NCBI RefSeq assembly: GCF_900120295.1
Contig: NZ_LT635469.1
Location: 124,001-188,000 of the forward strand
Direction: 5' to 3'
Origin: Blautia sp. Marseille-P3201T
GTDB taxonomy: Bacteria; Bacillota; Clostridia; Lachnospirales; Lachnospiraceae
DNA: 64,000 nt
Shown here: one piece after another, positions 4,379 through 20,564 of the stretch
Layout: every line of letters starts with the position of its first letter
Position numbering within the stretch: position 1 is the first letter of the stretch
The notes under the pieces: model-generated
The model's database searches: none
The model's input: only the letters and a program-made list of their open reading frames with translations
Told to the model about the DNA's origin: nothing
Translations under genes and position numbers: made by a program

Positions 4379-4963
4379 TCAGGTGTAAGTTTTAATTATT
4401 TCTTCGGCAATGAATCGTTTGGCAATACAGCGATCCATTGCCTGTTTTTCGATGTAATGATGAGCTTCAGGCTCACTCATGGAGAGCTCGCTGATTAAAA
4501 TCCACTTTGCTTTATTGACCAGGCGGATTTCAGCCATTTTGTCTTCAATAGATAAAGACTTCTTCTCAAATTGTCTTAAACGTTCACGGGCACTTTCCAT
4601 CCAGTTAAGGGAATGGAGGATAATTGGTTTTGAAATTGGTTTTGGCAGTGTGAATACACCATATTCAGCCACTTTGTCATGGATAGCAGAATGAATATCA
4701 CTTTTAACGAGAAGAAGTACAACAGATTGCTTGGAAGTAGATACGTCAATTGCAAAACGGGTACCGATATCATCAGGAAGAGGAGCATTGATGATAACGA
4801 AGTCAAAAGTTTTTTCCGTTAATATACGTCTGGCAGCACTGACACTTGAGGCTGTCTGGACAGGATAATAGCGTATTTCAGGCAACAGACCGGTGAAGGC
4901 AGAGGTGAAGCTATCTGTTGCGGATACGATGAGTATACTGTAAACACGTTCTCTTAAACTCAT
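4379..4963 (-). CDS. ANTAR-domain antiterminator with degenerate receiver
   Basis: Predicted RNA-binding regulator of 194 residues. Residues about 10-115 have a receiver-like fold pattern. The acidic pocket (normally DD after the first strand) reads ILIVSATD, and the phosphoacceptor Asp is replaced by Asn in FVIINAPLP, so phosphorylation control is unlikely. A linker helix leads to a C-terminal ANTAR domain (about 140-190) with AKWILISE..MSEPEAHHYIEKQAMD, matching the three-helix RNA-binding module of AmiR, NasR and EutV. It is last in the glutamate synthase-glnA operon. Four leaders in this window carry hexaloop hairpins coupled to terminators or terminator-like stems, its probable targets. 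That link is inferred from context. Confidence 0.88.
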   Translation of the reverse strand: MSLRERVYSILIVSATDSFTSAFTGLLPEIRYYPVQTASSVSAARRILTEKTFDFVIINAPLPDDIGTRFAIDVSTSKQSVVLLLVKSDIHSAIHDKVAEYGVFTLPKPISKPIILHSLNWMESARERLRQFEKKSLSIEDKMAEIRLVNKAKWILISELSMSEPEAHHYIEKQAMDRCIAKRFIAEEIIKTYT

Positions 4964-4992: not shown

Positions 4993-6204
4993 TTACTGAT
5001 TACAATATAGGTTTAAGATAGCATCCGGTATATATTTTCTGATGAACTCACTGTTTGTAGCAGTGATGCAGGCAGACTTGAAATTTTCCGGAAGTTGTTT
5101 AAAGTTTGCAAGGATATCTTTATCTGCCTTATACAGATTAATATCGGCAGGTGCAGGAAGTTCTGTTTTATTTTGAATTCCATCCAGAATAGCATAAATA
5201 ATCAGGGCAAATGCCAGATAGGTATTTGCAGACGGATCCGGAGAGCGGAGTTCCACACGTCGATACTTTCCAACTGCTGAAGGAACTCTGACAAGCTGTG
5301 AACGATTTTCACTGGACCATGAAATGTATCGAGGAGCCTTGTTTTTTCCAAAACGTTTATAAGAATTTTCAGTTGGATTTAAAAATATTGTCATATCCGA
5401 AATTTTATCCAAAATACCCGCTATCAGATAGTTCATATTATCTGTGTTGTCAGAAGATTTGACAGATATATTAATATGAAATCCATTTCCTGGCTTATTT
5501 TCTAATGGTTTTGGGCTAAAATCAGCAAAAATTCCATTTTGTCGTGCGATTGTTTTAACAACTGTCTGAAAAGTCATTGCATTGTCAGCAGCAGTTAAAG
5601 GATCGGAGTAGAGAAAGTCAATTTCATTTTGTCCCGGTCCTTCTTCATGATGGGAACTTTCCGGCTGAATTCCCATTTGCTCCAGTGTCAGACATATTTC
5701 ACGACGTATATTTTCCCCTCTGTCTTCTGGGGCGATGTCCATATAAGCGGCATTATCGTAAGGGAGTTTTGTGGGGTTGCCATTGTCATCTAACTGGAAT
5801 AGATAAAATTCCTGTTCAGCACCAAAGAAAAATTGGTATCCGGCATATTCTGCAGCCTGAATTGCCTTTTTTAAAATAGAGCGTGTGTCACATTCAAATA
5901 TTCGTCCGTCCGGATAAGTAATGCTACAGAACATTCTTACTACACATCCATGTTCCGGTCGCCAGGGTAAGGGCATCAGAGTGTCTGGTTCCGGATGAAG
6001 GAATAGGTCGGAATGCGTTTCATCCCCAAAACCTGCGATTGCAGATGCATCAATGGCAATACCATATTCAAAAGCCCGCGGAAGTTCCTGCGGCATAATG
6101 GATATATTTTTCTGTTTGCCAAATACATCACAAAAGGCGAGACGGATGAATTTAACATCTTCTTCCTGCACATATTGAATGATTTCATCTTTTGAATACT
6201 TCAT
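4993..6204 (-). CDS. glnA: Glutamine synthetase, type I
   Basis: Makes glutamine from glutamate, ammonia and ATP in the cytoplasm. It has the GSI beta-grasp start (FIRLAFCDVFGKQKNISI), metal-binding glutamates in FGAEQEFYLF and EEGPGQNEIDF, the nucleotide/metal motif GNGFHINIS, and the catalytic-domain stretch NSYKRFGKNKAPRYISW with RVELRSPD. At 403 residues it is somewhat shorter than the usual 440 or so. It sits between the GXGXG glutamate-synthase subunit (17-base gap) and the ANTAR regulator (29-base gap), so enzyme and putative regulator are co-transcribed. A second, unrelated glutamine synthetase (GSIII) is encoded at 10096. Confidence 0.95.
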   Translation of the reverse strand: MKYSKDEIIQYVQEEDVKFIRLAFCDVFGKQKNISIMPQELPRAFEYGIAIDASAIAGFGDETHSDLFLHPEPDTLMPLPWRPEHGCVVRMFCSITYPDGRIFECDTRSILKKAIQAAEYAGYQFFFGAEQEFYLFQLDDNGNPTKLPYDNAAYMDIAPEDRGENIRREICLTLEQMGIQPESSHHEEGPGQNEIDFLYSDPLTAADNAMTFQTVVKTIARQNGIFADFSPKPLENKPGNGFHINISVKSSDNTDNMNYLIAGILDKISDMTIFLNPTENSYKRFGKNKAPRYISWSSENRSQLVRVPSAVGKYRRVELRSPDPSANTYLAFALIIYAILDGIQNKTELPAPADINLYKADKDILANFKQLPENFKSACITATNSEFIRKYIPDAILNLYCNQ

Positions 6205-6221: not shown

Positions 6222-6944
6222 TTAATTTGCCACATACATTTGCTTGTATGGATTTTTACTGTCTGGTGTAATGACTGTAAAAGGAACAGATAAAAGTTTA
6301 TCCACAGAATATTTGAAGTCTCTACAGTACTCAGACAGATATTCCATAATTTCATCCAAATCCTTTGAAGTTGCATATCTTGCAGTTACTTGTTCTGGAA
6401 AGCGGATATCTTTACAATCTCCACGCAGAAACATTTTGCCGCCGTGCATTCCGGTACATGGGAAATTTCCTACAATACGTTTTCCGGCAGTGTGTATTCC
6501 GAGGACAATAATGATGCCACCGGCCTGATATTCACCCAGAAAGCTTCCGGCATATCCACCAATAATCATAACAGGAACTTTTTCTTTATAAGCTTTCATA
6601 TGGATTCCCGCGCGATATCCTGCGTTGCCTTTTACATAGATTTTGCCGCCTCGCATAGCATAACCGGCAGCATCTCCAATATTACCGTGTATAAGGATTT
6701 TTCCTTCATTCATAGTATCGCCCACAGCATCTTGAGCATTGGCGTTTACGATAATATTGGCGTTGTTTAAATAGGAACCCAATGCATTTCCGGGAATACC
6801 ATTGATTGTAAGATTTTTGTCAGACATACCTGCAGCGATAAATCTCTGACCACAGCAACCTTCAATTATACAGTCTTTGTCTGCGTCGCACAGTGCTTCA
6901 TTCACAGCTCTGTAATCTAAATTTGCAGCATTAATGATTTTCAT
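6222..6944 (-). CDS. Glutamate synthase GXGXG (beta-helix) subunit
   Basis: The 240-residue protein corresponds to the C-terminal right-handed beta-helix domain of GltB. It shows the repeated glycine pattern (GNALGSYLNNANI, GDTMNEGKILIHGNIGDAAGYAMRGGKIYVKGN, GGYAGSFLGEYQAGG). In archaeal-type glutamate synthases this domain is a separate polypeptide that helps shape the ammonia tunnel. I chose the ATG at 6944, eight or more bases after GGAGG; the upstream TTG frame would run through that site. Third gene of the minus-strand operon. Confidence 0.9.
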   Translation of the reverse strand: MKIINAANLDYRAVNEALCDADKDCIIEGCCGQRFIAAGMSDKNLTINGIPGNALGSYLNNANIIVNANAQDAVGDTMNEGKILIHGNIGDAAGYAMRGGKIYVKGNAGYRAGIHMKAYKEKVPVMIIGGYAGSFLGEYQAGGIIIVLGIHTAGKRIVGNFPCTGMHGGKMFLRGDCKDIRFPEQVTARYATSKDLDEIMEYLSEYCRDFKYSVDKLLSVPFTVITPDSKNPYKQMYVAN

Positions 6945-6985
6945 ATTATACCATACCTCCAAAAAAAAGTTTACTTTTTTTGCTG

Positions 6986-8491
6986 CTATTCTCCGGCATG
7001 AAAAATACCGAGTATTTCAAGTTCTTTTTCTGTCAATCCGATGCCACGCAGCATGAGGCGATTTCCTCGTAAAGCTTCAATGGAATTGATACCCATGCCA
7101 CCCATCAATTCTTTGATTTCATGTTTCCATGCAGTCATCAGATTAACCAAGCGCTGGTTTCCGATTTCAGGATCAAGTCTCTTCACAAGTTCTGGTCTTT
7201 GGGTTGCAATTCCCCAGTTGCATTTGCCACTCTGACAGGTACGGCAGAGGTGACAGCCGAGAGCCAGCAGAGCAGCAGTAGCTACGTAACAGGCATCGGC
7301 ACCGAGTGCAATGGCTTTTACCACATCGGCGGCGCTGCGAATACTTCCACCTACTATCAGTGATACGTTGTTGCGAATACCTTCATCACGAAGCCTCTGG
7401 TCAACAGAAGCGAGTGCAAGTTCAATGGGAATACCAACATTATCTCTGATTCGGGTAGGAGCGGCTCCTGTACCGCCACGGAAGCCATCAATGGCAATAA
7501 TATCAGCGCCACTGCGGGCAATACCACTTGCGATAGCTGCAATATTATGGACAGCCGCAACTTTGACAATGACAGGTTTTTTGTATTTAGTAGCTTCTTT
7601 CAGTGAGAAAACAAGCTGACGTAAATCTTCAATGGAATAAATATCATGATGCGGAGCAGGAGAAATAGCGTCAGAACCTTCAGGAATCATACGGGTACGT
7701 GATACATCACCGATAATTTTTGTGCCGGGAAGATGTCCCCCAATGCCTGGTTTTGCACCTTGTCCCATTTTTATTTCTATTGCAGCACCTGCTTTTAAAT
7801 AATCTTCGTAAACGCCGAAACGTCCGGAAGCTACCTGCACAATAGTATTTTTTCCATAGCAGTAAAAGTCTTCATGCAATCCTCCCTCACCGGTATTATA
7901 TAATATTCCGAGCTCTGTTGCTGCCAGAGCAAGAGATTTATGAGCGTTATAGCTGATAGATCCGTAGCTCATAGCAGAAAACATAACAGGCATGGAGAGT
8001 TCCAGCTGGGGAGGCAGTTTGCAGTCTAATTTTCCATCTGCTGTACGATTTACTTTGGAAGGCTTCTTTCCAAGATAAACACGGGTTTCCATGGGTTCGC
8101 GCAAAGGATCAATGGAAGGGTTTGTTACCTGTGAAGCGTTAATAAGGATTTTGTCCCAGTATACAGGTAGTGATTTAGGGTTTCCCATGGAAGATAAAAG
8201 GACACCGCCGCTGTTTGCCTGTTTATAAATCTCATTTATTGTGTCTCCGAACCAGTTGGAATTTTCCCGCAGGTTACAGTCACTTTTTATGATTTTTAAT
8301 GCTCTGGCAGGGCAGAAGGAAACACATCTCTGACAGTTGACGCATTTTGACTCATCATGCTTCATAACCTTATGTTCTTTGTCGTAGCTGTGAACTCCAT
8401 TGGCACATTGGCGTTCGCATATCCGACAGGCAATACATCTGTTTTCATTTCTGACTACTTCAAATTCCGGATAGATAAATTCTATACTCAT
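6986..8491 (-). CDS. Glutamate synthase FMN/Fe-S catalytic subunit
   Basis: A 501-residue protein of the archaeal-type glutamate synthase large-subunit family. The N-terminus holds a two-cluster ferredoxin (CIACRICERQC and CVNCQRCVSFCP, residues about 19-60). The rest is the FMN-binding alpha/beta barrel of GltB with GQGAKPGIGGHLPG, IDGFRGGTGAAPT and IVGGSIRSAADVVKAIALGAD. The cysteine-rich loop CHLCRTCQSGKC probably binds the Fe-S cluster. It converts 2-oxoglutarate plus ammonia to glutamate. Its start overlaps the stop of the preceding glutaminase subunit by one base. Confidence 0.93.
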   Translation of the reverse strand: MSIEFIYPEFEVVRNENRCIACRICERQCANGVHSYDKEHKVMKHDESKCVNCQRCVSFCPARALKIIKSDCNLRENSNWFGDTINEIYKQANSGGVLLSSMGNPKSLPVYWDKILINASQVTNPSIDPLREPMETRVYLGKKPSKVNRTADGKLDCKLPPQLELSMPVMFSAMSYGSISYNAHKSLALAATELGILYNTGEGGLHEDFYCYGKNTIVQVASGRFGVYEDYLKAGAAIEIKMGQGAKPGIGGHLPGTKIIGDVSRTRMIPEGSDAISPAPHHDIYSIEDLRQLVFSLKEATKYKKPVIVKVAAVHNIAAIASGIARSGADIIAIDGFRGGTGAAPTRIRDNVGIPIELALASVDQRLRDEGIRNNVSLIVGGSIRSAADVVKAIALGADACYVATAALLALGCHLCRTCQSGKCNWGIATQRPELVKRLDPEIGNQRLVNLMTAWKHEIKELMGGMGINSIEALRGNRLMLRGIGLTEKELEILGIFHAGE

Positions 8492-9585
8492 TAAAATGCA
8501 CCTTCCTTTACTTTTATAATGACCGGCTCACCACCTGCAGGAGACCATATTTTTTCAGCGCTTGGTTCCATGGTTCGGATAGCAGATTCTTCGCTGGCAA
8601 TGAATACTTTGTCATTTTTTTCACCGACAACCATAGAACGCAGTTTGAGGCGGTCGTTTAGTGCCATCAGCCCCCCGTTAAATCCTAAAACAATCGAAAA
8701 AGGACCGGTTACCAGCAGACTTGGGAACATAGTTCTGAGATAAGTGTGTTTTTGCTGATCTTCCAAATCTGTTTTTGTTGCAATGGTGCTCCAGAAGGGC
8801 GCAGCAATGACGCTTGCGGCTTCACCGAGGGTGAGACCCTGTATACGGAGCAGATAATCCATGATGTAGGTAATGACTTCCGTATCGGTTTGGAGTGTGC
8901 ATTTGTAGCCGAACATTTCCATAAAACGGCGATTTGCATCATAAGATGAAATTTCACCATTATGCACAATAGAATAATCAAGCAGTGTAAAGGGGTGTGC
9001 CCCGCCCCACCAACCGGGAGTATTTGTTGGATAACGTCCGTGAGCGGTCCAGGAATACCCCTCATATTCCTCCAGTTTATAAAACATTCCTACATCTTCA
9101 GGAAATCCCACTGCTTTAAAAGTTCCCATGTTTTTTCCACTGGAGAAAACATAGGCGCCGGATATTTCCGCATTTATTTTCATGACCGTTCGGGCAACAA
9201 ATTCCTTTTCGTCCAATTGCAGAGAAGTTAAAACAGATTGCAGAGGAGCAACAAAATACCGCCATATAATAGGCTCATCTGTAATCGCTGGTATCTTGCG
9301 GGTTGGAATGATTTCGGACTGGACAATTTCAAATTGCTCCTTTAAGAAAGCTTCGCATTTCTTTCTTGTATCTCGGGTATCAAAAAATATATGTAATGCA
9401 TAAAAATCTTTATAATCGGGGTAAATGCCATAACCGGCAAAACCTCCGCCTAATCCATTAGAGCGGTCGTGCATGGGTTTCATGGAATTTGTAATCATTT
9501 CACCGGACATTTTCTTTCCGTCTTTGGAAATTACTGCTGAGATTGCACATCCGGAAGGAATTCTCACCTGACCTTCAATTTTCAT
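8491..9585 (-). CDS. Glutamate synthase glutaminase (class II GATase) subunit
   Basis: First gene of the nitrogen operon, 364 residues, corresponding to the N-terminal amidotransferase domain of GltB. It would release ammonia from glutamine for the FMN subunit. SGCAISAV places the expected nucleophile at Cys13, so a 12-residue propeptide would have to be removed to expose it, as in GltB. Other class II GATase landmarks are present: HGRYPTNTPGWWGGAHPF, IVHNGEISSYDANRRF and LQTDTEVITYIMD. A strong promoter and a terminator-containing leader lie directly upstream. Confidence 0.9.
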   Translation of the reverse strand: MKIEGQVRIPSGCAISAVISKDGKKMSGEMITNSMKPMHDRSNGLGGGFAGYGIYPDYKDFYALHIFFDTRDTRKKCEAFLKEQFEIVQSEIIPTRKIPAITDEPIIWRYFVAPLQSVLTSLQLDEKEFVARTVMKINAEISGAYVFSSGKNMGTFKAVGFPEDVGMFYKLEEYEGYSWTAHGRYPTNTPGWWGGAHPFTLLDYSIVHNGEISSYDANRRFMEMFGYKCTLQTDTEVITYIMDYLLRIQGLTLGEAASVIAAPFWSTIATKTDLEDQQKHTYLRTMFPSLLVTGPFSIVLGFNGGLMALNDRLKLRSMVVGEKNDKVFIASEESAIRTMEPSAEKIWSPAGGEPVIIKVKEGAF

Positions 9586-9615: not shown

Positions 9616-9680
9616 AAAAACAAAGGCATCCATTTTAAGGGCAGAAAAATTCTACACAAAAAATGAACGCCTTTGCTCAT
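9616..9680 (-). promoter_or_regulatory. ANTAR-type antitermination leader of the glutamate synthase operon
   Basis: Read on the minus strand, ATGAGC-AAAGGC-GTTCAT (9680-9663) forms a 6-bp stem with a hexaloop having A at position 1 and G at position 4, the ANTAR recognition rule. The same bases are part of the left arm (9675-9660) of a 16-bp terminator stem whose right arm is 9636-9621, followed by five U (9620-9616). The two structures exclude each other. The hairpin starts only six bases after the -10, so near the RNA 5' end. A second hexaloop hairpin, usual in known targets, is not obvious. Confidence 0.75.
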
Positions 9681-9686
9681 ATTCCA

Positions 9687-9715
9687 TATATACAGCCTAT
9701 GATAAGTTTTGTCAA
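9687..9715 (-). promoter_or_regulatory. Promoter of the glutamate synthase-glnA-ANTAR operon
   Basis: On the minus strand, TTGACA (9715-9710), a 17-base spacer and TATATA (9692-9687) form a near-consensus vegetative promoter. It diverges from the glnN promoter, with about 57 bases between the two -35 boxes. Confidence 0.85.
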
Positions 9716-9772
9716 GAGAGATCTTTCATGAAATGAGAAAAATGAAAAAGATTGTGCAACAGAAAAAAGGGG

Positions 9773-9801
9773 TTGACAAATAATTTTATCGGGTGTATTA
9801 T
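9773..9801 (+). promoter_or_regulatory. Promoter upstream of glnN
   Basis: TTGACA (9773-9778), 17 bases, TATTAT (9796-9801). The predicted start is within a few bases of the first hexaloop hairpin at 9811. Confidence 0.8.
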
Positions 9802-9810
9802 CCAACACGT

Positions 9811-9859
9811 AAAGGCAAGGGCGTCTTTGAGATATAGTTCTCAGAGGCGTTTTTTTATT
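9811..9859 (+). promoter_or_regulatory. ANTAR-type leader 1 of glnN with terminator
   Basis: AAAGGC-AAGGGC-GTCTTT (9811-9828) is a 6-bp stem with hexaloop AAGGGC (A1, G4). Its 3' arm is also in the left arm of a terminator: CGTCTTTGAGA pairs with TCTCAGAGGCG around TATAGT, followed by seven or more U. The same 18-base hairpin sequence recurs exactly at 10015 and 15330. Confidence 0.75.
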
Positions 9860-9990
9860 TCATAGGAAATTGCATCCTATGAAACAAAAATGCTCCGCAA
9901 GGATGCGCAGCTCGCGGAAATGAAATCATCACTTTGTGAACCGCTCGCGCGCGGAGATTACGCAACAGCGCAATCTTTCTTGTTTTTATA
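9858..9990. repeat. Dispersed palindromic repeat, copy 1
   Basis: TTTCATAGGA (9858-9867) and TCCTATGAAA (9875-9884) form a 10-bp perfect inverted repeat around AATTGCA. The following sequence (AAAAATGCTCCGCAAGGAT...) is shared with a second copy at 58249. GC-rich inverted segments follow (9895-9960). No reading frame is seen. It separates the two glnN leader elements. The outer limits are approximate. Confidence 0.6.
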
Positions 9991-10000
9991 AGATAATTAA

Positions 10001-10072
10001 TATGATTTAATCCAAAAGGCAAGGGCGTCTTTCAGATACAGAGAAAAGTATTATGAGAGATATCCTTGCTTT
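10001..10072 (+). promoter_or_regulatory. ANTAR-type leader 2 of glnN
   Basis: AAAGGC-AAGGGC-GTCTTT (10015-10032) is identical to the hairpin of leader 1. Its 3' arm overlaps a second stem, TCTTTCAGATAC (10028-10039) with GTATT-A-TGAGAGA (10048-10060), which has one bulge and wobble pairs. A U-rich stretch follows later (10070-10074). This second terminator looks weaker than the others. A -10-like TATGAT (10001-10006) precedes at the same spacing as in leader 1, but its -35 is poor. Confidence 0.6.
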
Positions 10073-10095
10073 TTCAAATTGGAAGGAGTGATAGT

Positions 10096-12192
10096 ATGAA
10101 AAATGTTTCAGAATTTTTTGGGTGTAAAGTTTTTGATGACAGAGTGATGAAAGCAAATTTATCAGCAAAAGTTTATAACTCTTTGAGAAAAACTATTGAT
10201 AAAGGAGCAAAGCTTGATATTAGTGTGGCAAATGCAGTTGCAGCAGCTATGAAAGATTGGGCAGTTGCAAATGGTGCTACTCATTATACACATTGGTTTC
10301 AGCCGCTTACCGGTGTAACGGCAGAAAAACATGATAGCTTTATTTCTCCATCTCCGGATGGAGGCGTGATTATGGAATTTTCCGGAAAAGAACTGATTAA
10401 AGGTGAACCGGATGCATCTTCTTTTCCATCAGGTGGATTGCGTGCAACCTTTGAGGCAAGAGGGTACACAGCATGGGATCCTACCTCTTACGCATTTATC
10501 AAAGGAAAAACATTATGTATCCCCACAGCGTTCTGTTCTTATGGCGGAGAGGCATTGGATAAGAAAACACCATTACTTCGCTCTATGGAGGCATTGAACA
10601 GGCAGGCACTTCGTATTCTCCATCTGTTTGGAAACGATGATGTGAAATGTGTACGTACTTCTGTAGGACCGGAGCAGGAGTATTTCCTCATTACAAAGGA
10701 AATGTATGAACAGAGAAAAGACCTTCGATTTACAGGACGAACTCTTTTTGGAGCAAAACCACCGAAGGGACAGGAGATGGATGATCATTACTTTGGTGTG
10801 ATTAAGCCTAGGGTTGCTGCATATATGGAAGAATTAAATGAAGAACTATGGAAATTGGGTATTCTGGCTAAAACAGAACATAATGAAGTGGCTCCGGCAC
10901 AGCATGAATTAGCTCCTATTTATACCACAACTAATATTGCAACAGACCATAATCAGCTGACAATGGAAGTTATGCAGAAGGTCGCAGAAAAAAATGGACT
11001 TGTATGTTTACTTCATGAGAAACCATTCGCAGGTGTAAACGGTAGTGGAAAACATAATAACTGGTCGATTGCGACAGACAAAGGTGTAAATTTATTGTCA
11101 CCAGGAGAGACTCCTTATGAAAATGCACAGTTTTTATTGTTCTTATGTGCAGTTATTAAAGCAGTGGATGATTATCAGGATTTGCTGCGGCTTTCAGTTG
11201 CAACTGCAGGAAATGATCACAGATTGGGGGCGAATGAGGCACCTCCGGCAGTTGTTTCTGTTTTTCTTGGAGATGAATTGAATGCAGTACTGGAAGCTAT
11301 TGAGACAGGTGTCACGTATGAAGGAACGAAGAAGACTCAGATGAAGTTGGGAGTAGATGTGCTTCCAAAATTTAATCGAGACACTACAGACCGCAATCGT
11401 ACTTCTCCATTTGCATTTACCGGAAATAAATTTGAGTTTCGCATGTTGGGATCATCTAACAGTATCGCATGTGCAAATATTATGCTCAATAGTGCAGTGG
11501 CAGAAAGCTTGAAAATTTATGCGGACAGGCTGGAAAAAGCAGAGAATTTTGAGGATACACTACATGAAATGATCAGAAAAACGATTAAAGATCATAAACA
11601 TATTATTTTCAACGGCAATGGCTATGATGATACATGGATTAAAGAAGCAACAGAAAAACGAGGATTGCTTAATTATCGTACAACACCAGACTGTATGCCT
11701 CATCTTTTAGATGAAAAAAATGTACGGATGTTGACATCTCATAAAATATTTTCAGAGGCAGAATTAAAGTCCAGATGTGAAATTATGCTGGACAACTATT
11801 GCAAAACGGTATTAATTGAAGCAAATACTATGATTGACATGGCAAAAACAGAAATTGCTCCGGCAGTAAGTTCCTATGTCCTTGAACTGGCGAATACAGC
11901 AGTGGCAAAGCAAACAGTAGATGCATTGATTTCCTGCAGATATGAAAATGATTTATTAAAGAAGCTATCCAGACTGGAAGAGCAGATTGCAGTCAGAGCA
12001 GAAGAGCTGGAAGATGCTGTATTGAAATTACAGAGCGCCGGAGATATTGAAGAAGAAGCTTATATGATAAGAGATATAATTTTAAGTAAAATGTGTGAAC
12101 TTAGAGTTGCCTGTGACGAGGCGGAAACAATGACAGCAAAGAAATACTGGCCGTTTCCAACTTACAGTGATTTGTTGTTTGGCGTAAAATAA
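10096..12192 (+). CDS. glnN: Glutamine synthetase, type III
   Basis: A 698-residue GSIII, the large dodecameric form common in Bacteroidetes and Clostridia. Family hallmarks are [19 protein letters not shown] near residue 120, [25 protein letters not shown] and the nucleotide-site motif [17 protein letters not shown], followed by the [16 protein letters not shown] catalytic stretch. The ATG at 10096 follows AAGGAG; an earlier ATG at 10066 lies inside the leader. It provides a second route for ammonia assimilation beside glnA and is preceded by two ANTAR-type leaders, so it is likely under the same antitermination control. Confidence 0.96.
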
Positions 12193-12231
12193 ATCAGTAT
12201 TTAGTAAAGTAAATTACGGAGGTATATTCAT

Positions 12232-13812
12232 ATGTGTTCTATTATGGGTTATTGCAGCCGCAGCATTTCTTTTTATGATTTTATGAAAGGGTTTGAAAAG
12301 ACAAAATCAAGAGGTCCGGATGACAGCCGTGTAGTGAAGACAGAAAAAGGTATTCTCGGATTTCACAGACTTTCAATCATGGGGCTGACCCCGTCTGGTA
12401 TGCAGCCGTTTCAGTATGGAAAAAATTATGTAGTCTGTAATGGAGAGATTTATGGATTTGAGAAATTAAAGAAAGAACTGTCAGATAAATATACATTTGA
12501 AAGTGACTCAGATTGTGAAATACTTTTACCGCTGTATCAGGAATATGGTACAGATATGTTTTCTATGCTGGATGCAGAGTTTGCCTGTATCATTTATGAT
12601 GGTAAAACAGAAAAATTCATTGCTGCAAGAGATCCTATTGGAATTAGACCATTATATTATGGTTATGACAAAGAAGGAGCTGTTGTTTTTGCCAGTGAAT
12701 CCAAAAATCTGATAGGAATTGCAAAGAAGATTATGCCTTTTCCACCAGGACACTATTATAAAGATGGCCAATTCATCTGTTATCATGATATTACAAAGGT
12801 AGACGAAGTCTGCAACGACAGTATGGAAAAAATTTGTGGAAAAATTCACGATAAGCTTATAACTGCTGTGGAAAAACGTCTTGTATCAGACGCTAAAGTA
12901 GGATTTCTGCTTTCGGGTGGACTGGACTCTTCTCTAGTATGTGCAATTGCGGCGAAAAAAACCAAAGAACCAATTAAAACTTTTGCCATTGGTATGAGTG
13001 AGGATGCCATTGATTTAAAGTATGCAAAACAAGTGTCAGATTATATTGGCAGTGATCATACAGAAGTATATATGACACCACAGGAAGTGCTTTCTTCACT
13101 GGAAACAGTTATTCATCTGTTGGGAACTTATGACATTACAACAATCCGGGCTTCTATAGGAATGTATCTGGTGTGTAAAGCAATTCATGAACAGACGGAT
13201 ATCCGAGTCCTTTTAACAGGGGAGATTTCTGATGAATTATTTGGATATAAGTACACAGATTTTGCACCAAATGCAGAAGCTTTTCAACGAGAATCTCAGA
13301 AACGAATACGTGAAATTCATATGTATGATGTTCTTCGTGCGGACCGCTGTATATCTGTAAATTCACTGGAAGCAAGAGTTCCTTTTGGAGATCTCGATTT
13401 TGTAAAATATGTAATGGCAATAAATCCAGAGATGAAGATTAACATCTATGGAAAAGGAAAATATCTGTTGCGTCATGCATTTGAAAAAGATAATTATTTG
13501 CCGGAGGAAATTCTTTGGAGAGAAAAAGCTGCATTTTCAGATGCAGTAGGACATTCTTTGGCTGATTATCTGAAGCAATATGCCGAAGATAAGTATACAG
13601 ATGAAGAGTTTAAAAGCCGATGTAAAAATTATATACATGCCAGACCATTCACCAAAGAGTCTTTGTTGTACAGAGAAATTTTTGAGAAATATTATCCAGG
13701 TCAGTCTGAGATGATTGCAGACTTCTGGATGCCGAATACAGAATGGGAAGGATGTAATGTAAAGGATCCATCAGCAAGAGTTCTTTCCAATTATGGTGAC
13801 AGTGGAAAATAA
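12232..13812 (+). CDS. asnB: Asparagine synthase (glutamine-hydrolysing)
   Basis: 526 residues. Cys2 (MCSIMGYC) would be the glutaminase nucleophile after Met removal. RLSIMG, VCNGEIYGFEKLK and AARDPIGIRPLYYG are class II GATase motifs. The C-terminal synthetase domain carries the pyrophosphate loop LLSGGLDSS and TGEISDELFGYKY. It transfers glutamine nitrogen to aspartate using ATP. It lies 39 bases after glnN behind an ACGGAGG site with no terminator between, so glutamine production and use are co-transcribed. Confidence 0.95.
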   Translation: MCSIMGYCSRSISFYDFMKGFEKTKSRGPDDSRVVKTEKGILGFHRLSIMGLTPSGMQPFQYGKNYVVCNGEIYGFEKLKKELSDKYTFESDSDCEILLPLYQEYGTDMFSMLDAEFACIIYDGKTEKFIAARDPIGIRPLYYGYDKEGAVVFASESKNLIGIAKKIMPFPPGHYYKDGQFICYHDITKVDEVCNDSMEKICGKIHDKLITAVEKRLVSDAKVGFLLSGGLDSSLVCAIAAKKTKEPIKTFAIGMSEDAIDLKYAKQVSDYIGSDHTEVYMTPQEVLSSLETVIHLLGTYDITTIRASIGMYLVCKAIHEQTDIRVLLTGEISDELFGYKYTDFAPNAEAFQRESQKRIREIHMYDVLRADRCISVNSLEARVPFGDLDFVKYVMAINPEMKINIYGKGKYLLRHAFEKDNYLPEEILWREKAAFSDAVGHSLADYLKQYAEDKYTDEEFKSRCKNYIHARPFTKESLLYREIFEKYYPGQSEMIADFWMPNTEWEGCNVKDPSARVLSNYGDSGK

Positions 13813-13824
13813 AAGGAGGGCGCT

Positions 13825-15108
13825 ATGTCAAAATATAGATTTGAAACACTTCAGCTTCATGTGGGACAGGAATATCCTGATCCCGTTACCGATGCACGTG
13901 CAGTACCTATTTATGCAACTACTTCTTATGTTTTTCATGATTGTTCTCATGCAGCAGCTCGCTTTGGACTTGAAGATGCCGGAAATATTTATGGCCGTTT
14001 AACGAATTCTACACAGGATGTGTTGGAAAAGCGTGTTGCTGCTTTGGAAGGAGGTATTGCTGCTTTGGCACTTTCATCGGGAGCAGCGGCAATTGCTTAT
14101 ACCTTACAGGCTCTGGGACAAAACGGAGGACACATTGTTGCACAGAAAACAATTTACGGAGGCAGTTATAATCTGATGGCACATACACTTCCGGGATTTG
14201 GAATTACGGCTTCTTTTGTCAATATACATGATCTTGATGAAGTAGAAGCAGCTATTAAAGGAAATACAAGAGCAATTTACATAGAAACTCTAGGCAATCC
14301 CAACAGTGATATTCCGGATATTGATTCATTGGCTGCACTTGCCCATAGACACGGATTACCCCTTGTGGTAGATAATACTTTTGGCACTCCATATTTTATT
14401 CGACCGATTGAACATGGGGCAGACATTGTGGTACATTCTGCTACAAAATTTCTTGGAGGTCATGGTACTACCCTTGGAGGAATTATTGTAGATGCTGGGA
14501 AATTTGACTGGACCGTTTCAGGAAAGTATCCGGCTATTGCTGCACCAAATCCAAGTTATCATGGTGTTTCTTTTGTAAATGCTGCGGGACCTGCTGCATT
14601 CGTTACATATATCAGGGCAATTCTTCTTCGCGATACGGGAGCAAGTATTTCTCCCTTTGCAGCGTTTTTATTACTGCAGGGAATTGAAACATTGTCACTG
14701 CGTCTGGAGCGTCATGCAGAAAATACAAAGAAAGTGGTAGAATTTTTAAAAAATCATCCACAAGTTGAAAGAGTAAATCATCCATCCCTTCTTTCACATC
14801 CGGATCATTCTCTTTATCAAAAATATTTTCCGAATGGCGGTGCATCTATTTTTACATTCGATATCAAAGGAGGAAAGGAAGAAGCATACAAGTTTATTGA
14901 TCACCTGCAGATATTTTCATTGCTTGCCAATGTAGCAGATGTGAAAAGTCTTGTAATTCATCCGGCAACTACTACGCATAGCCAGCTTTCACCGGAAGAA
15001 CTGTCAGAGCAGGAAATTAAACCTAATACAATTCGACTTTCTATTGGAACAGAAAATATAGAAGATATAATTGATGATTTACAGCATGGGTTTCATGCAG
15101 TAGAATAA
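13825..15108 (+). CDS. metY: O-acetylhomoserine sulfhydrylase (cysteine/homocysteine synthesis)
   Basis: A 427-residue PLP enzyme of the Cys/Met metabolism family. PLP-lysine motif: VVHSATKFLGGHGT. Other family stretches are YGRLTNSTQDVLEKRVAALEGG, IYIETLGNPNSDIPD and VVDNTFGTPY. The long insert after the PLP lysine (KFDWTVSGKYPAIAAPNPSYHGV) is typical of MetY rather than MetB/MetC. It converts O-acetylhomoserine and sulfide to homocysteine. It starts 12 bases after asnB with AAAAGGAGGG. A broken Rrf2-type regulator gene follows it. Confidence 0.92.
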   Translation: MSKYRFETLQLHVGQEYPDPVTDARAVPIYATTSYVFHDCSHAAARFGLEDAGNIYGRLTNSTQDVLEKRVAALEGGIAALALSSGAAAIAYTLQALGQNGGHIVAQKTIYGGSYNLMAHTLPGFGITASFVNIHDLDEVEAAIKGNTRAIYIETLGNPNSDIPDIDSLAALAHRHGLPLVVDNTFGTPYFIRPIEHGADIVVHSATKFLGGHGTTLGGIIVDAGKFDWTVSGKYPAIAAPNPSYHGVSFVNAAGPAAFVTYIRAILLRDTGASISPFAAFLLLQGIETLSLRLERHAENTKKVVEFLKNHPQVERVNHPSLLSHPDHSLYQKYFPNGGASIFTFDIKGGKEEAYKFIDHLQIFSLLANVADVKSLVIHPATTTHSQLSPEELSEQEIKPNTIRLSIGTENIEDIIDDLQHGFHAVE

Positions 15109-15112
15109 AGTT

Positions 15113-15285
15113 GCAGAACGACAGGAATTATCCTTAAAGTATATTGAAAGGATTATCGGATTGGAGATATTTTAAGACTGACCGAAGGACAACTGGTTCC
15201 TGTGGCGTGCTTGGAATGTAATGCAAAAACCTGTAAGCGTGCAAATATATGCAAAACATTGCCGATGTGGAAAGATTTTCAATAA
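15113..15285 (+). pseudogene. Remnant of an Rrf2-family regulator
   Basis: Two frames carry consecutive pieces of an Rrf2 protein. The first (from 15113) reads AERQELSLKYIERI, the recognition-helix end of the winged helix. The second (15163-15285) reads GDILRLTEGQLVPVACLEC, then CKRANICKTLPMWKDFQ and a stop. The wing between them is deleted, the N-terminus is absent and the C-terminal tail is short. The cysteine pattern resembles Fe-S-type Rrf2 regulators. Next to metY, it may once have been a cysteine/sulfur regulator. Confidence 0.7.
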
Positions 15286-15291
15286 AATAGA

Positions 15292-15320
15292 TTGACAAAA
15301 GAAATTATAAGAGGTAGAAT
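15292..15320 (+). promoter_or_regulatory. Promoter of pyrG-purF-dapL
   Basis: TTGACA (15292-15297), 17 bases, TAGAAT (15315-15320). The -35 begins just after the Rrf2 remnant ends. Confidence 0.85.
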
Positions 15321-15329
15321 AGCGTGCGT

Positions 15330-15386
15330 AAAGGCAAGGGCGTCTTTAAGTTAAAAGAAACTTAAAGGCGCTTTTGCCCTTTTTTG
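15330..15386 (+). promoter_or_regulatory. ANTAR-type leader of pyrG with terminator
   Basis: AAAGGC-AAGGGC-GTCTTT (15330-15347) is identical to the glnN hairpins and starts nine bases after the -10. GCGTCTTTAAGTT (15340-15352) pairs with AACTTAAAGGCGC (15359-15371) to give a 13-bp terminator stem that reuses the hairpin's 3' arm. An outer pairing with TTTTGCCC and a run of six T (15380-15385) follow. pyrG starts 26 bases later. Confidence 0.8.
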
Positions 15387-15405: not shown

Positions 15406-17007
<1,602 letters not shown>

Positions 17008-17011
17008 GATT

Positions 17012-18460
17012 ATGGGAATTCATGAGGAATGTGGCGTATTTGGAATAATGAGTATAAGAAAAAGGAATGTTGCAGAAATAGTTTATTATGGACTGTATGC
17101 GTTGCAGCACAGAGGACAGGAAAGTTGTGGAATTGTTGTAAATGATGAGGGAGTATTTGCTTCTCATAAGGATCTGGGACTTGTAAGTGAAGTATTTACT
17201 AAAGATACGCTGCTTCATTTACCGGAAGGAACTATGGCTGTGGGTCATGTGCGATATGGGACAACAGGAGGAAACACGAGAAACAACTGTCAGCCTATTG
17301 AAGTCAACCATCAGAAAGGTAAAATGGCGGTGGCACATAATGGAAATCTAAGTAATGCATTGGAACTGCGTGATAAGTTAGAACTGTCAGGAGCGATTTT
17401 TCATACAACCAGTGACACAGAAACGATAGCTTATGTGATTACCAGAGAAAGGTTGATGACACCAAGTATTGAAGAGGCAGTGAGTAATACCATGAATTTA
17501 CTGGAGGGGGCGTATTCTCTGGTTTTGGTATCGTCTGCAAAAATGATTGCTGCAAGAGATCCTTATGGATTCAGACCTCTTTGTTATGGACAGATGTCAG
17601 ATGGCTCTTACGTTGTTGCATCGGAAAGCTGTGCGTTATCAGCAGTAGGTGCAGAATTTATCAGAGATTTACTGCCGGGTGAAATACTGGTCTTTGATCA
17701 GAAAGGGGTGGTGTCAAGGAAAGAACACTGTGGAAAACAGAAGAAAAAAACATGTATTTTTGAGTATATTTATTTTGCCCGACCGGATTCGGTTATCGAT
17801 GATGTATCTGTTCATGCATCGCGAATTCGCGCAGGTCAGTTATTGGCAGAGAGATATCCGGCAAAGGCAGATGTTGTAATTGGAGTTCCGGACAGCGGTC
17901 TGGATGCTGCCCTTGGCTATGCAAATCAATCCGGTATTCCTTATGGGATTGGGTTGATTAAAAATAAATACATTGGCAGAACCTTCATTTCACCGGAACA
18001 AAAGGAACGTCTGGACAAAGTTCGGATAAAGCTGTCTCCTATGAAGAATGTAATAGATGGAAAAAGGGTGGTTCTTATTGATGATTCTATTGTAAGAGGC
18101 ACCACAAGCAGACAGATTGTAAAATTGTTACGTGATGCAGGAGCCAGAGAGATACACATGAGAATTTCAGCTCCCCCATTTTTATATCCTTGTTATTATG
18201 GTACAGATATTGATTCTGAGGAAAATCTGATTGCCTGTCATCATAGTACAGAAGAAATTGCTGAAATGATTGGAGTAAATTCTTTAGGATATTTGGAAGT
18301 TGCTCAGTTGGGAAAATTGATTGAAAGTGAGGACTATTGTGCAGCCTGTTTTCACGGAAGATATCCAACACGAATTCCAACTGATCTTCGTAAAGACCGA
18401 TTTGAAAGAAAATTATCGGAGAGAAAAAATGATGGAGGAATAGAATATGGTCAGACCTAA
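17012..18460 (+). CDS. purF: Amidophosphoribosyltransferase
   Basis: First committed enzyme of purine synthesis: PRPP plus glutamine gives phosphoribosylamine. 482 residues. The nucleophile is Cys7 (HEECGVFGIM), implying removal of a six-residue propeptide. RYGTTGG and AHNGNLSNA belong to the glutaminase domain. VVLIDDSIVRGTTS is the PRPP-binding loop. Four cysteines (KKTCIFEYIYFARPDS, PFLYPCYYG and CAAC) sit where Bacillus-type PurF binds its 4Fe-4S cluster. It overlaps the start of dapL by 14 bases and shares the pyrG promoter. Confidence 0.96.
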   Translation: MGIHEECGVFGIMSIRKRNVAEIVYYGLYALQHRGQESCGIVVNDEGVFASHKDLGLVSEVFTKDTLLHLPEGTMAVGHVRYGTTGGNTRNNCQPIEVNHQKGKMAVAHNGNLSNALELRDKLELSGAIFHTTSDTETIAYVITRERLMTPSIEEAVSNTMNLLEGAYSLVLVSSAKMIAARDPYGFRPLCYGQMSDGSYVVASESCALSAVGAEFIRDLLPGEILVFDQKGVVSRKEHCGKQKKKTCIFEYIYFARPDSVIDDVSVHASRIRAGQLLAERYPAKADVVIGVPDSGLDAALGYANQSGIPYGIGLIKNKYIGRTFISPEQKERLDKVRIKLSPMKNVIDGKRVVLIDDSIVRGTTSRQIVKLLRDAGAREIHMRISAPPFLYPCYYGTDIDSEENLIACHHSTEEIAEMIGVNSLGYLEVAQLGKLIESEDYCAACFHGRYPTRIPTDLRKDRFERKLSERKNDGGIEYGQT

Positions 18461-19631
18461 TATGTATTACGGTGAATTGGAGAATTCATATCTTTTTTAT
18501 AATATAGCTCAGAAAACCAGGACCTATGTAGAGCATCATCCAGGAGTAAAGCTTTTAAGAATGGGAATTGGAGATGTTTCATTGCCACTGTGTGATGCAG
18601 TAATCAAAGCATTGCATGAGGCTGTGGATGATCAGGCTTCAAAAAGCAGTTTTCATGGATATATGCCGGAATGCGGCGCTTTGTTTTTAAGGGAAGAGAT
18701 TGTAAAATATTATGAAAAAAGAGGTGTTTCTTTATCTGTTGAGGAAATTTTCGTGTCAAGCGGAGCAAGTGATGAACTGGGAGATGTTCTGGATTTATTT
18801 GATCGTTCTAATCAGGCATTGGTAATTGAACCGGCTTATCCGGCATATGTAGATGCAAATGTGATGGCAGGAAGAAAAATTGTGTATCTGGTTTCAGGAG
18901 AGGAAAATGAATTTTTACCTGAACCAAATGAGAAAGCAGAAGCAGATATTATCTATATCTGTTCGCCCAATAATCCTACCGGAGCAGTTTTTTCGCGTAA
19001 ACAGCTTCAGGCATGGGTCGATTATGCAAATAAAAAAGGTTCCATCATTCTTTTTGATGCGGCATATGAGGCTTTTATTGAGGATGAAACACTTCCGCAT
19101 AGTATTTTTGAACTGGATGGAGCAGAAACATGTGCCATTGAAATCTGTTCTTTTTCAAAAACTGCCGGTTTTACGGGAACCAGACTTGGTTATACCGTTA
19201 TACCAAAAGCATTGAAGCGTAATGGGATGAATATAAATGAAATGTGGGTACGAAATCGTACAACAAAAACAAATGGTGTATCTTATATTATTCAGAAAGG
19301 TGGAGCAGCAGTTTTTTCGGAAGAAGGTCAGAAACAAATTCATGAAAATATCCAGGTTTATAAGAAAAATGCAAAAGTATTGATGCAGGCTTTGGATCAG
19401 CTTGGAATTTGGTATTGTGGAGGGAAAAATGCACCCTATATTTGGATGAAATGTCCGAGAGGAATGAAAAGCTGGGAGTTCTTTGATTATCTGTTACAGG
19501 AAATTCAAGTTGTGGGGACGCCGGGAGAGGGATTTGGAGCCTGCGGAGAGGGATATTTTCGATTTTCAACTTTCAGTTCTCCGGAAGATACAAAAGAGGC
19601 AGCACAAAGAATTGTTAAATTACTTTCGTAA
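18447..19631 (+). CDS. dapL: LL-diaminopimelate aminotransferase
   Basis: A fold-type I PLP aminotransferase of 394 residues. It makes LL-diaminopimelate directly from tetrahydrodipicolinate and glutamate, feeding lysine and peptidoglycan synthesis. Family features: LLRMGIGDVSLPL near residue 40, SGASDELGDVLDLF, YICSPNNPTGAVF, PLP lysine in CSFSKTAGFTGTRLGY and the C-terminal YFRFSTFSSPED. The start has GGAGG and lies within purF. Use of glutamate as amino donor fits the nitrogen-linked operon. The neighbouring family member AspC/AlaT is less likely given these motifs. Confidence 0.9.
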   Translation: MVRPNMYYGELENSYLFYNIAQKTRTYVEHHPGVKLLRMGIGDVSLPLCDAVIKALHEAVDDQASKSSFHGYMPECGALFLREEIVKYYEKRGVSLSVEEIFVSSGASDELGDVLDLFDRSNQALVIEPAYPAYVDANVMAGRKIVYLVSGEENEFLPEPNEKAEADIIYICSPNNPTGAVFSRKQLQAWVDYANKKGSIILFDAAYEAFIEDETLPHSIFELDGAETCAIEICSFSKTAGFTGTRLGYTVIPKALKRNGMNINEMWVRNRTTKTNGVSYIIQKGGAAVFSEEGQKQIHENIQVYKKNAKVLMQALDQLGIWYCGGKNAPYIWMKCPRGMKSWEFFDYLLQEIQVVGTPGEGFGACGEGYFRFSTFSSPEDTKEAAQRIVKLLS

Positions 19632-19909: not shown

Positions 19910-20560
19910 ATGCGTACAAAATTCGACCAGCAGCTTGAAGAGCTAAATGTAGAGCTGATTAAAATGGGAGCTTTGTGTGAAAGAGCAATCAGAAGAGCAG
20001 TAGATCAGCTTGCGGACACGCAGGATGCAGAAAAAGAGCTTGTAGACGGAATTGAGGAGGAAATCAATCAGAAAGAAAGAGAGATTGAAGCTCTTTGCAT
20101 GAAGCTGCTTCTTCAGCAGCAGCCGGTAGCCGGTGATTTAAGACAGATATCTTCTGCATTAAAGATGATTTCCGATATGGAGAGAATTGGCGACCAGGCG
20201 CAGGACATCGCAGATATGTCCCGTTTTGTTCAGGTAAAGGAGCTGGCGCATAAAATTCACATTGGAGAAATGGCAGAAGCAGCGATTAAAATGGTGACAG
20301 AAAGCATTGATTCTTTTGTAAAGAAGGATTTGGAAGCAGCAGCAAGGGTTGTGGCTTATGATGATGTGGTAGACAATCTGTTCTTAAAAGTAAAACAGGA
20401 GCTTCCCAGTATGATGAAAAAGGATGCTCAGCAGGCAGAATATTACATTGATTTGATTATGATTGCCAAATATTTAGAAAGAATTGGAGATCATGCAGAA
20501 AACATTGCTCAGTGGGTAGAGTACTCAATAACAGGAAAGCATGAAGCAGACAGAGGATAA
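19910..20560 (+). CDS. phoU: Phosphate signalling protein PhoU
   Basis: A 216-residue all-helical protein made of two similar three-helix halves. The paired metal-site motifs are present: MERIGDQAQDIAD near residue 90 and LERIGDHAENIAQW near residue 190. PhoU links PstB and PhoR and dampens Pho signalling when phosphate is plentiful. It begins a three-gene unit with phoP and phoR behind an AGGGAGG site. It is separated from pstSCAB by 15 kb, whereas many genomes keep phoU next to pstB. Confidence 0.95.
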   Translation: MRTKFDQQLEELNVELIKMGALCERAIRRAVDQLADTQDAEKELVDGIEEEINQKEREIEALCMKLLLQQQPVAGDLRQISSALKMISDMERIGDQAQDIADMSRFVQVKELAHKIHIGEMAEAAIKMVTESIDSFVKKDLEAAARVVAYDDVVDNLFLKVKQELPSMMKKDAQQAEYYIDLIMIAKYLERIGDHAENIAQWVEYSITGKHEADRG

Positions 20561-20564
20561 GAAG

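Follow-up and report, generated by a model that had tools for sequence, protein, structure and literature searches.

Single-hexaloop hairpins at the predicted 5' ends of nitrogen operon transcripts as candidate targets of a NitR-type ANTAR protein in Blautia

INTRODUCTION

The RNA target of ANTAR-domain antiterminators has been defined as two hexaloop hairpins, P1 and P2, the second of which overlaps a terminator (Ramesh et al. 2012, PMC3369931), and dual stem-loops with a linker of 2 to 25 nucleotides (nt) are given as a requirement elsewhere (PMC8164766). Systematic evolution of ligands by exponential enrichment (SELEX) gave an ANTAR consensus composed of a closing C:G pair with A1 and G4 in the loop (PMC7496416). 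According to the work on EutV, the dimer cannot grip both hexaloops together, and P1 acts as a recruitment hairpin that is still required for antitermination; the same report leaves open why EutV needs two hairpins though its dimer grips one at a time, calls for single-hexaloop bioinformatics, and suggests single hexaloops as possible ANTAR sites in EutX/Rli55 and mycobacterial RNAs (PMC8934654). In Clostridium saccharobutylicum, the ANTAR protein NitR is described as capable of antitermination and as inducing the glutamine synthetase and glutamate synthase (GS/GOGAT) genes upon nitrogen limitation (PMC6316151), and a NitR-type ANTAR protein has been reported in Clostridium acetobutylicum (PMC4676874). 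Here, we analyzed 64,000 nt from Blautia sp. Marseille-P3201T (contig NZ_LT635469.1, positions 124,001 to 188,000; hereafter, the window, numbered from its first letter), in which the glutamate synthase (gltB), glutamine synthetase III (glnN) and pyrG operons are preceded by leaders with a small hexaloop hairpin, close to a gene for an ANTAR protein.

An initial annotation of this DNA had proposed a local ANTAR antitermination regulon with four leaders. Our analysis retains the covarying stem, the overlap with a terminator, the link to an ANTAR gene and the reach of the regulon, and departs from it in the number of leaders and in the mechanism. We consider it likely that a NitR-type ANTAR protein controls the three operons by antitermination through a single hexaloop at the 5' end of the RNA. 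In the open-access literature that we searched, no single-hexaloop antiterminator is described; the supplementary tables of PMC3369931, which may hold such leaders, lay outside that search.

RESULTS

Four hairpins, each with a 6-bp stem and a hexaloop containing A1 and G4, were found in the window, with coordinates and sequences matching those initially annotated. The elements of the leaders are as follows.

9663..9680, minus strand: gltB leader hexaloop hairpin, ATGAGC-AAAGGC-GTTCAT, single, at the predicted transcript 5' end (sequence, hairpin model)
9687..9715, minus strand: gltB operon promoter, TTGACA (9715-9710), 17 nt, TATATA (9692-9687) (sequence)
9618..9678, minus strand: gltB leader terminator, mutually exclusive with the hairpin, -30.7 kcal/mol (fold)
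9773..9801, plus strand: glnN operon promoter, TTGACA (9773-9778), 17 nt, TATTAT (9796-9801) (sequence)
9811..9828, plus strand: glnN leader hexaloop hairpin, first of the tandem pair, AAAGGC-AAGGGC-GTCTTT (sequence, covariance models)
9817..9855, plus strand: first terminator of the glnN leader, absorbing the loop and 3' arm, -20.3 kcal/mol (fold)
9856..9996, plus strand: dispersed repeat of 141 bp between the two glnN hairpin-terminator modules (41 genome matches at E<=0.001, own copy included)
10015..10032, plus strand: glnN leader hexaloop hairpin, second of the tandem pair, AAAGGC-AAGGGC-GTCTTT, without a consensus promoter of its own (sequence, hairpin model)
10017..10072, plus strand: second terminator of the glnN leader, absorbing most of the 5' arm, the loop and the 3' arm, -24.9 kcal/mol (fold)
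15292..15320, plus strand: pyrG operon promoter, TTGACA (15292-15297), 17 nt, TAGAAT (15315-15320) (sequence)
15330..15347, plus strand: pyrG leader hexaloop hairpin, single, AAAGGC-AAGGGC-GTCTTT (sequence, covariance models)
15333..15381, plus strand: pyrG leader terminator, -30.1 kcal/mol (fold)

In the lowest-energy folds of the four sites, the small hairpins reach -3.5 to -4.3 kcal/mol versus -20.3 to -30.7 kcal/mol for the terminator stems. Folding confirmed at 4/4 sites that the 3' arm of the hairpin is shared with a terminator, a longer stem that ends at a U tract; this stem also absorbs the loop in all four and part of the 5' arm in three (10015, 15330 and 9680). Genome searches were done with two covariance models, both built partly from the window sites themselves. 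With the hairpin-only model (R2), the window hairpins were the top four in the 2.94-Mb genome (E 0.0016 to 0.0034); the fifth-ranked site (E 0.027) falls within an open frame of 756 codons, and ranks 5 to 7 are the only further matches listed. The promoter-plus-hairpin model (R1) returned three window sites with E values of 5.9e-10 to 2.7e-8 and a next genome site at 0.12; R1 matches below the top three (E >= 0.12) were treated as noise, except for the tandem second hairpin. The pattern GCAARGGCGTY occurs at eight places in the genome, four of which are the leaders; two of the other four were inspected, and neither is such a leader. The strong matches all fall within 11 kb of the sole ANTAR gene detected, and the detected regulon in this genome comprises three operons.

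The initial annotation had treated the hairpin at 10015 as a leader in its own right. We rejected this assignment, as the best promoter score at that site was 4, with no consensus promoter of its own; the window has three leaders with four hairpins, and 10015 belongs to a tandem glnN leader as its second gate, displaced by the repeat. Tandem glnN leaders were found in 19 relatives (20 with the window), with the hairpins 59 to 116 nt apart and a consensus promoter at the first only. In the window, the two hairpins are 204 nt apart because the 141-bp dispersed repeat lies between them. The glnN operon thus has two terminator gates in series. No second hairpin was found in 47 first leaders, which precede gltB1 (25), glnN (9), glnA (8), pyrG (3), asnB (1) and nitR (1). 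The repeat is palindrome-rich and sits exactly between the glnN gates; 13 other copies are 86 to 94% identical over at least 95 nt, and the repeat may itself be a small mobile element.

The position of the hairpin relative to the promoter was evaluated in leaders drawn from named genomes (80 loci surrounding NitR relatives), where the promoter consensus TTGACA-16/18-TATAAT was sought within 60 nt. Leader scans demanded C-A..G..-G plus a stem, and the percentages of pairing, closing pair and A1/G4 are therefore partly built in; R2 was built from 72 hairpins picked by these selection criteria. In a promoter-blind set of 89 leaders, which also demanded the loop AANGRN and 40 to 330 nt to the gene, 63 had a promoter score of <=2, and the -10 box ended 6 to 10 nt before the 6-bp stem in 59 of these 63, compared with 1.1% for random anchors and 1.5% for shuffles. 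The gltB promoter of the window, with a score of 2 and 6 nt to the stem, follows the same arrangement. The other 26 leaders were 20 tandem second hairpins, four with a correctly placed promoter of score 2.5 (L016 and L053-L055), L084, and a chance site in L030.

Because selection on the loop biased these scans, a loop-blind test was made on 73 gltB1 and glnN starts. A promoter with a score of <=1.5 was present at 57, and 55 of these had a hexaloop hairpin just behind it; in a shuffled control, some hexaloop hairpin appeared in 27%. The loops carried A1 in 55/55, A2 in 54/55, G4 in 53/55 and G5 in 49/55, and the closing pair was C-G in 53/55. Among the 16 starts above that score, 13 scored 2 to 2.5, as the window gltB promoter does (2), and three scored 3 to 5. 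With a textbook start about seven nt after the -10 box, the stem would lie at roughly +1 to +5, with the hairpin as the predicted 5' end of the RNA.

A second hexaloop hairpin would need at least 12 nt plus a linker. Therefore, with the -10 box usually only 6 to 10 nt from the stem, there is no room for P1 between promoter and hairpin, and a C-ANNGNN-G hairpin was seen within the 100 nt upstream in 0/67 first leaders (0.31 expected). The initial annotation had invoked the known ANTAR mechanism; however, the P1 needed in the EutV target is missing here. Apart from the weak downstream candidates described next, a P1 and a P2 joined by a linker of 2 to 25 nt are not found in these leaders. We therefore place them outside the dual-hexaloop RNA family, as a variant with the tested P2 sequence features but without P1 that would act in the manner of known ANTAR antiterminators. 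A dual-motif scan of the loci gave 12 candidate pairs, six of them in gltB or glnA terminators, one in the glnN leader of L038 and five elsewhere. A weak 4-bp A1/G4 hexaloop can be drawn in the gltB/glnA terminator, downstream of the main hairpin, in L011, L013, L016, L017, L028 and L037.

Covariation of the stem, on which the initial annotation had staked its proposal, was seen in two alignments. In 51 leaders, drawn from 66 available first leaders, 4/6 pairs change on both sides (76 cells versus 28.7 in shuffles), and G-U is the commonest pair type at one stem position; in 86 model matches from the stretches of other genomes, 5/6 pairs change on both sides. The selection inflates the percentages of pairing but does not affect the swapping of A-U, U-A, G-C and C-G within a given position. 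All 86/86 model matches close the loop with C-G, a pair that the model itself favors. The overlap with a terminator is also general: in the stretch up to the U tract (median, 59 nt from the hairpin start), a terminator that absorbs the hairpin was the lowest-energy fold for 64/67 first hairpins and 21/22 other hairpins, versus 9.9% with shuffled downstream sequence, and its median energy was -27.9 and -25.4 kcal/mol, respectively. These 22 other hairpins comprise the 20 tandem seconds, L084 and the chance site in L030; only this last site has no terminator. A search of the leaders against Rfam 15 gave nothing near the gathering score.

The covariance-model search across Lachnospiraceae that had been proposed as a check showed that the leaders are widespread and statistically tied to ANTAR genes. 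In the family, 145/299 genomes have an R1 match (E<=0.01) and 265/299 an ANTAR gene; in the class, the counts are 53/245 (E<=0.001) and 124/245. The R1 leader was found in 142/265 family genomes with an ANTAR gene versus 3/34 without (Fisher p, 3e-7), and in 47/124 versus 6/121 class genomes (Fisher p, 9e-11), with genomes treated as independent and kinship ignored; the cross-tables were compiled by hand, and ANTAR-negative genomes were deduced from numbering gaps in the lists. Two of the leader-bearing genomes in which no ANTAR gene was detected, G254 and G340, have three or four leader matches; either the ANTAR gene is missing from the assembly, or the leaders are read by something else. At another set of 20 ANTAR loci, without an R1 match (L278-L297), a glnA relative lies near the ANTAR gene in 20/20 and a dapL relative in 12/20. 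These loci form a more distant NitR group. Among them, L295 has a hairpin behind a promoter, and inspection by eye of 18 upstream regions revealed a shorter AANG-type hairpin followed by a terminator-like stretch before glnA in L279, L282, L289 and L291.

The leaders of the window belong to a divergent nitrogen cluster, with gltB-glnA-nitR on the minus strand and glnN-asnB-metY and pyrG-purF-dapL on the plus strand. As initially annotated, the ANTAR gene closes the first operon: nitR is last in the gltB-glnA operon and is the sole ANTAR gene detected in the 2.94-Mb genome.

4379..4963, minus strand: nitR, receiver-like and ANTAR domains, 194 amino acids, Asn59 at the phospho-acceptor position (Pfam ANTAR, 1.7e-13)
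4993..6204, minus strand: glnA, glutamine synthetase I, directly 5' of nitR (Pfam Gln-synt_C/N)
6222..9585, minus strand: glutamate synthase, three genes, whole span (Pfam)
8491-9585, minus strand: gltB1, glutamate synthase glutamine amidotransferase (GATase) (Pfam)
6986-8491, minus strand: gltB2, glutamate synthase FMN/Fe-S synthase (Pfam)
6222-6947, minus strand: gltB3, glutamate synthase GXGXG (Pfam)
10096-12192, plus strand: glnN, glutamine synthetase III (GSIII) (Pfam)
12232-13812, plus strand: asnB (Pfam, NCBIfam)
13825-15108, plus strand: metY, O-acetylhomoserine sulfhydrylase (Pfam, NCBIfam)
15412-17007, plus strand: pyrG (NCBIfam equivalog over cut-off)
17012-18460, plus strand: purF (NCBIfam equivalog over cut-off)
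18447-19631, plus strand: dapL (NCBIfam equivalog over cut-off)

Phosphate genes flank the cluster, with pstB on one side (3567-4322) and phoU and a PhoB-like regulator on the other (19910-22891); the regulator scores below the curated cut-off, and the next open frame resembles a histidine kinase by eye.

The name NitR is borrowed from the C. saccharobutylicum protein, as no NCBIfam name was assigned at E<=1e-15; two features of the NitR nitrogen-assimilation antiterminator, nitR beside glnA and leaders before GS/GOGAT genes, are present in the window, and glnA is directly 5' of nitR in 56/65 scoreable loci. The AlphaFold2 model of NitR (mean predicted local distance difference test score, 91.9) shows one long helix (residues 112 to 160) before the last two helices, and its nearest solved structures are Rv1626, EutV (6wsh and 6ww6, the latter with a template modeling score of 0.75) and AmiR (1qo0). 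A receiver-like domain (Pfam score of 30.1 bits, just under the 30.2 cut-off) is followed by the ANTAR domain, which is the layout of the EutV/AmiR class. The receiver departs from the usual residues: the phospho-acceptor position 59, the counterpart of EutV D54, is Asn in 65/68 homologues and Asp in 3/68, and the acidic strand-1 positions are Ser-Ala in the window NitR. In contrast, His168, Tyr170, Lys173, Gln174 and Met176 of the ANTAR domain are invariant (68/68). With an inferred chain offset of 2 and EutV numbering from PMC8934654, the RNA contacts R142, K143 and K147 of EutV map to I146, R147 and K151 (K or R in 63/68), and the plug Met172 maps to Met176 (68/68).

To define the genes behind the leaders in relatives, we scanned 109 loci (29 family loci and 80 stretches from the strongest matches listed) and found 117 leaders in 104 of them. 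By similarity to the window proteins, the genes behind these leaders are glnN (42), gltB1 (16), glnA (11), asnB (9), pyrG (4), purF (3), dapL (2) and others (30). NCBIfam supported 2/2 of the dapL and 2/3 of the purF assignments, the third gene being glmS. At L161:344-1771, a hexaloop leader stands before this glmS, which encodes another glutamine amidotransferase (33% identity in the initial purF assignment), so that in one relative the predicted regulon would extend to amino-sugar synthesis. Family models placed 19/30 of the other leaders, before genes for an ammonium transporter (amt, 8), NADP-glutamate dehydrogenase (gdhA, 2), purC (2) and PII (2), and, one each, carA, dapF, guaA, asnA and aspartate ammonia-lyase; the gene downstream in L207 is PII-like by eye, with no match at the strict cut-off. 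The content of the regulon is mostly nitrogen themed. Off-theme or unassigned cases are a 499-residue PPDK_N frame (L139:1603-3099) and a tyrosine-phosphatase-family protein (L196:420-1604), neither with an obvious nitrogen function, as well as an IS200 transposase (L153), short frames (L149 and L217), a masked stretch (L176) and four leaders without a frame.

The proposal that the regulon spans cytidine triphosphate (CTP), purine and diaminopimelate (DAP) genes found support of two kinds. In relatives, pyrG, purF, purC, guaA, dapL and dapF have leaders of their own, and when eight genes were tested, the one nearest behind nitR was pyrG (14), dapL (4) or purF (3) in 21/79 scoreable loci. As these genes follow nitR in relatives, the link to CTP, purine and DAP synthesis extends beyond the window. 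The 21 loci, in which one of the three lies directly behind nitR, come from more distant relatives (L053-L055, L057-L059, L062-L065, L067, L070, L073-L076, L079-L081, L083 and L088); here, it is as though the leader of the nitR operon served these genes by read-through.

DISCUSSION

These leaders resemble the target RNAs of EutV, NasR and AmiR in the A1/G4 hexaloop, the closing C-G pair, the mutual exclusion with a terminator, the presence of an ANTAR gene in the genome and the nitrogen genes downstream. They differ from them in that they have neither a P1 nor space for it, the RNA is predicted to begin with the hairpin, the loop is narrower (mostly AANGGC), and glnN may have two gates in series. 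Unlike EutX/Rli55, a sponge RNA, and the mycobacterial elements, which lie at ribosome-binding sites or in 5' untranslated regions, the single hexaloops described here overlap terminators. As with NitR of C. saccharobutylicum, the ANTAR protein is tied to GS/GOGAT genes; beyond that system, the regulon here includes pyrG-purF-dapL and, in relatives, further genes.

In the mechanism that we propose, without active NitR the short nascent hairpin would be displaced by the longer terminator stem, and transcription would stop about 45 to 65 nt from the start. Active NitR, expected under nitrogen limitation, would clamp the hexaloop through A1, A2, G4 and the closing C-G pair, so that the terminator could not form and the operon would be transcribed; in glnN, two such gates would act in series. 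This would proceed without an upstream recruitment hairpin, unlike in the EutV and NasR targets. P1 is perhaps dispensable because the hairpin is the first to leave the polymerase, has no upstream competitor and would fold some 40 nt before the U tract.

AmiR is an ANTAR protein with a degenerate receiver that lacks the phospho-acceptor Asp. NitR of the window is similar to AmiR of Pseudomonas aeruginosa in that the latter is among its best structural matches (1qo0) and in the His at the loop-stacking position; however, AmiR is held by AmiC (1qo0 title), whereas the neighbors of nitR in the window are glnA and pstB. Since the NitR receiver also lacks the phospho-acceptor Asp, the signal would reach it via a protein partner, as in AmiR, and a partner, most plausibly glutamine synthetase, probably sets NitR activity. 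GlnA is the leading candidate because glnA adjoins nitR, by analogy with AmiC-AmiR and with the GS-TnrA partnership of Bacillus subtilis (PMC6316151).

Several observations weigh against NitR-dependent antitermination through a single hexaloop. In the EutV system, induction in vivo was lost on P1 deletion or linker change (PMC3369931), and binding of NasR to P2 alone required about 12 uM (PMC7496416), so a single hairpin may be too weak. The loop-stacking Tyr164 of EutV corresponds to His168 in NitR (68/68). The RNA 5' end is deduced from the promoter consensus, and 2/57 promoter-bearing starts lack a hairpin (L077 and L083). Since the dual-motif scan gave none at the intended positive controls, 15 EutP loci and four further loci with ANTAR genes, leaving its sensitivity unproven, the argument against P1 was built on promoter position. 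The neglect of kinship in the co-occurrence tests belongs here too, as do the exceptions to the co-occurrence. Nine leader-bearing genomes have no ANTAR gene at the cut-off (3/34 in the family and 6/121 in the class), and a new search with NitR gave weak matches in two of them (E 0.015 to 0.037) and none in seven; the leaders of G340 (L269 and L270) and G531 lie at contig ends, while G254, 99% complete and with three R1 matches (L170-L172, L271), is unexplained. Conversely, 123/265 ANTAR-bearing family genomes have no R1 match at E<=0.01, and several of the 18 upstream regions inspected by eye, e.g., L283-L285, show no hairpin before glnA. Finally, 11/30 of the leaders before other genes are off-theme or without a family-model assignment.

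Some of these exceptions could be accounted for if the hairpins were real attenuators switched by another RNA-binding protein or by a metabolite, the ANTAR gene being a mere neighbor. The nine leader-bearing genomes without a detected ANTAR gene and the degenerate receiver of NitR would fit this explanation, which we nevertheless regard as unlikely, given the strong co-occurrence of leader and ANTAR gene and the location of every strong genome match no more than 11 kb from the single ANTAR gene detected. At 18 nt, the hairpin would make a small aptamer, and no Rfam match comes near the gathering score. Moreover, in the loop-blind set, the loop and closing pair fit the SELEX consensus for ANTAR proteins (A1, G4 and C:G; PMC7496416). 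Canonical control by two hairpins, with a P1 that was missed because transcription starts further upstream or the second hexaloop lies elsewhere in the leader, would agree with the need of the EutV target for both hexaloops (PMC3369931, PMC8934654), with that of NasR for full affinity (PMC7496416), and with the weak 4-bp hexaloop in the gltB/glnA terminators of the six close relatives. The same scan, however, found no such weak downstream hexaloop (C-AGAGNA-G or similar) in the window; upstream hexaloops are absent from the 100 nt before all 67 first leaders, the promoter spacing is narrow, and, among the first leaders examined for tandem pairs, a second conventional hairpin occurs only in glnN leaders, where in relatives it lies 59 to 116 nt off with a terminator between. 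We therefore find dual-hairpin control improbable.

The location of the element near +1, at an almost fixed distance from the -10 box, and its nearly palindromic sequence would also be expected of a DNA operator for a transcription factor, with the hairpin incidental. But the stem stays paired although both of its sides vary in sequence, G-U pairs, which give no DNA symmetry, are used, a terminator nearly always overlaps, and tandem copies without promoters occur, which makes an operator very improbable. In B. subtilis, pyrG is regulated by attenuation through reiterative G addition at the start site, next to the attenuator. One of the operons studied here is pyrG, and its transcript likewise would begin beside an attenuator; yet the predicted starts of the window have no G run and this hairpin also stands before glnN, gltB, amt and other genes, so that we give this explanation almost no credence. 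The presence of two RNAs on each dimer in the EutV crystal (PMC8934654) prompted the idea of a trans pair, in which NitR would bridge the hairpins of the divergent gltB and glnN leaders; it was rejected as a general rule, as leaders also precede amt, gdhA, PII and pyrG.

Antitermination by NitR at a single hexaloop would have consequences for how ANTAR systems are studied. The leaders look like natural one-hairpin antiterminators, with the hairpin set at the transcript end by the promoter, and comparisons or exchanges of leaders would therefore give direct access to the role of P1; searches based on the dual motif would tend to miss this class. More tentatively, and with doubts outweighing confidence, single-hexaloop antitermination at the 5' end could be a separate, widespread ANTAR mode in Clostridia, with a phosphorylation-free NitR dimer held by feedback-inhibited glutamine synthetase. 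If so, the glutamine level would be passed straight to read-through of operons that make or consume glutamine (gltB, glnN, asnB, pyrG, purF, carA, guaA and glmS). Overall, these results predict that a single regulator governs ammonium uptake, GS/GOGAT, and asparagine, CTP, purine and DAP synthesis across a large group of Clostridia, and suggest a route for the nitrogen signal that may operate without a kinase.

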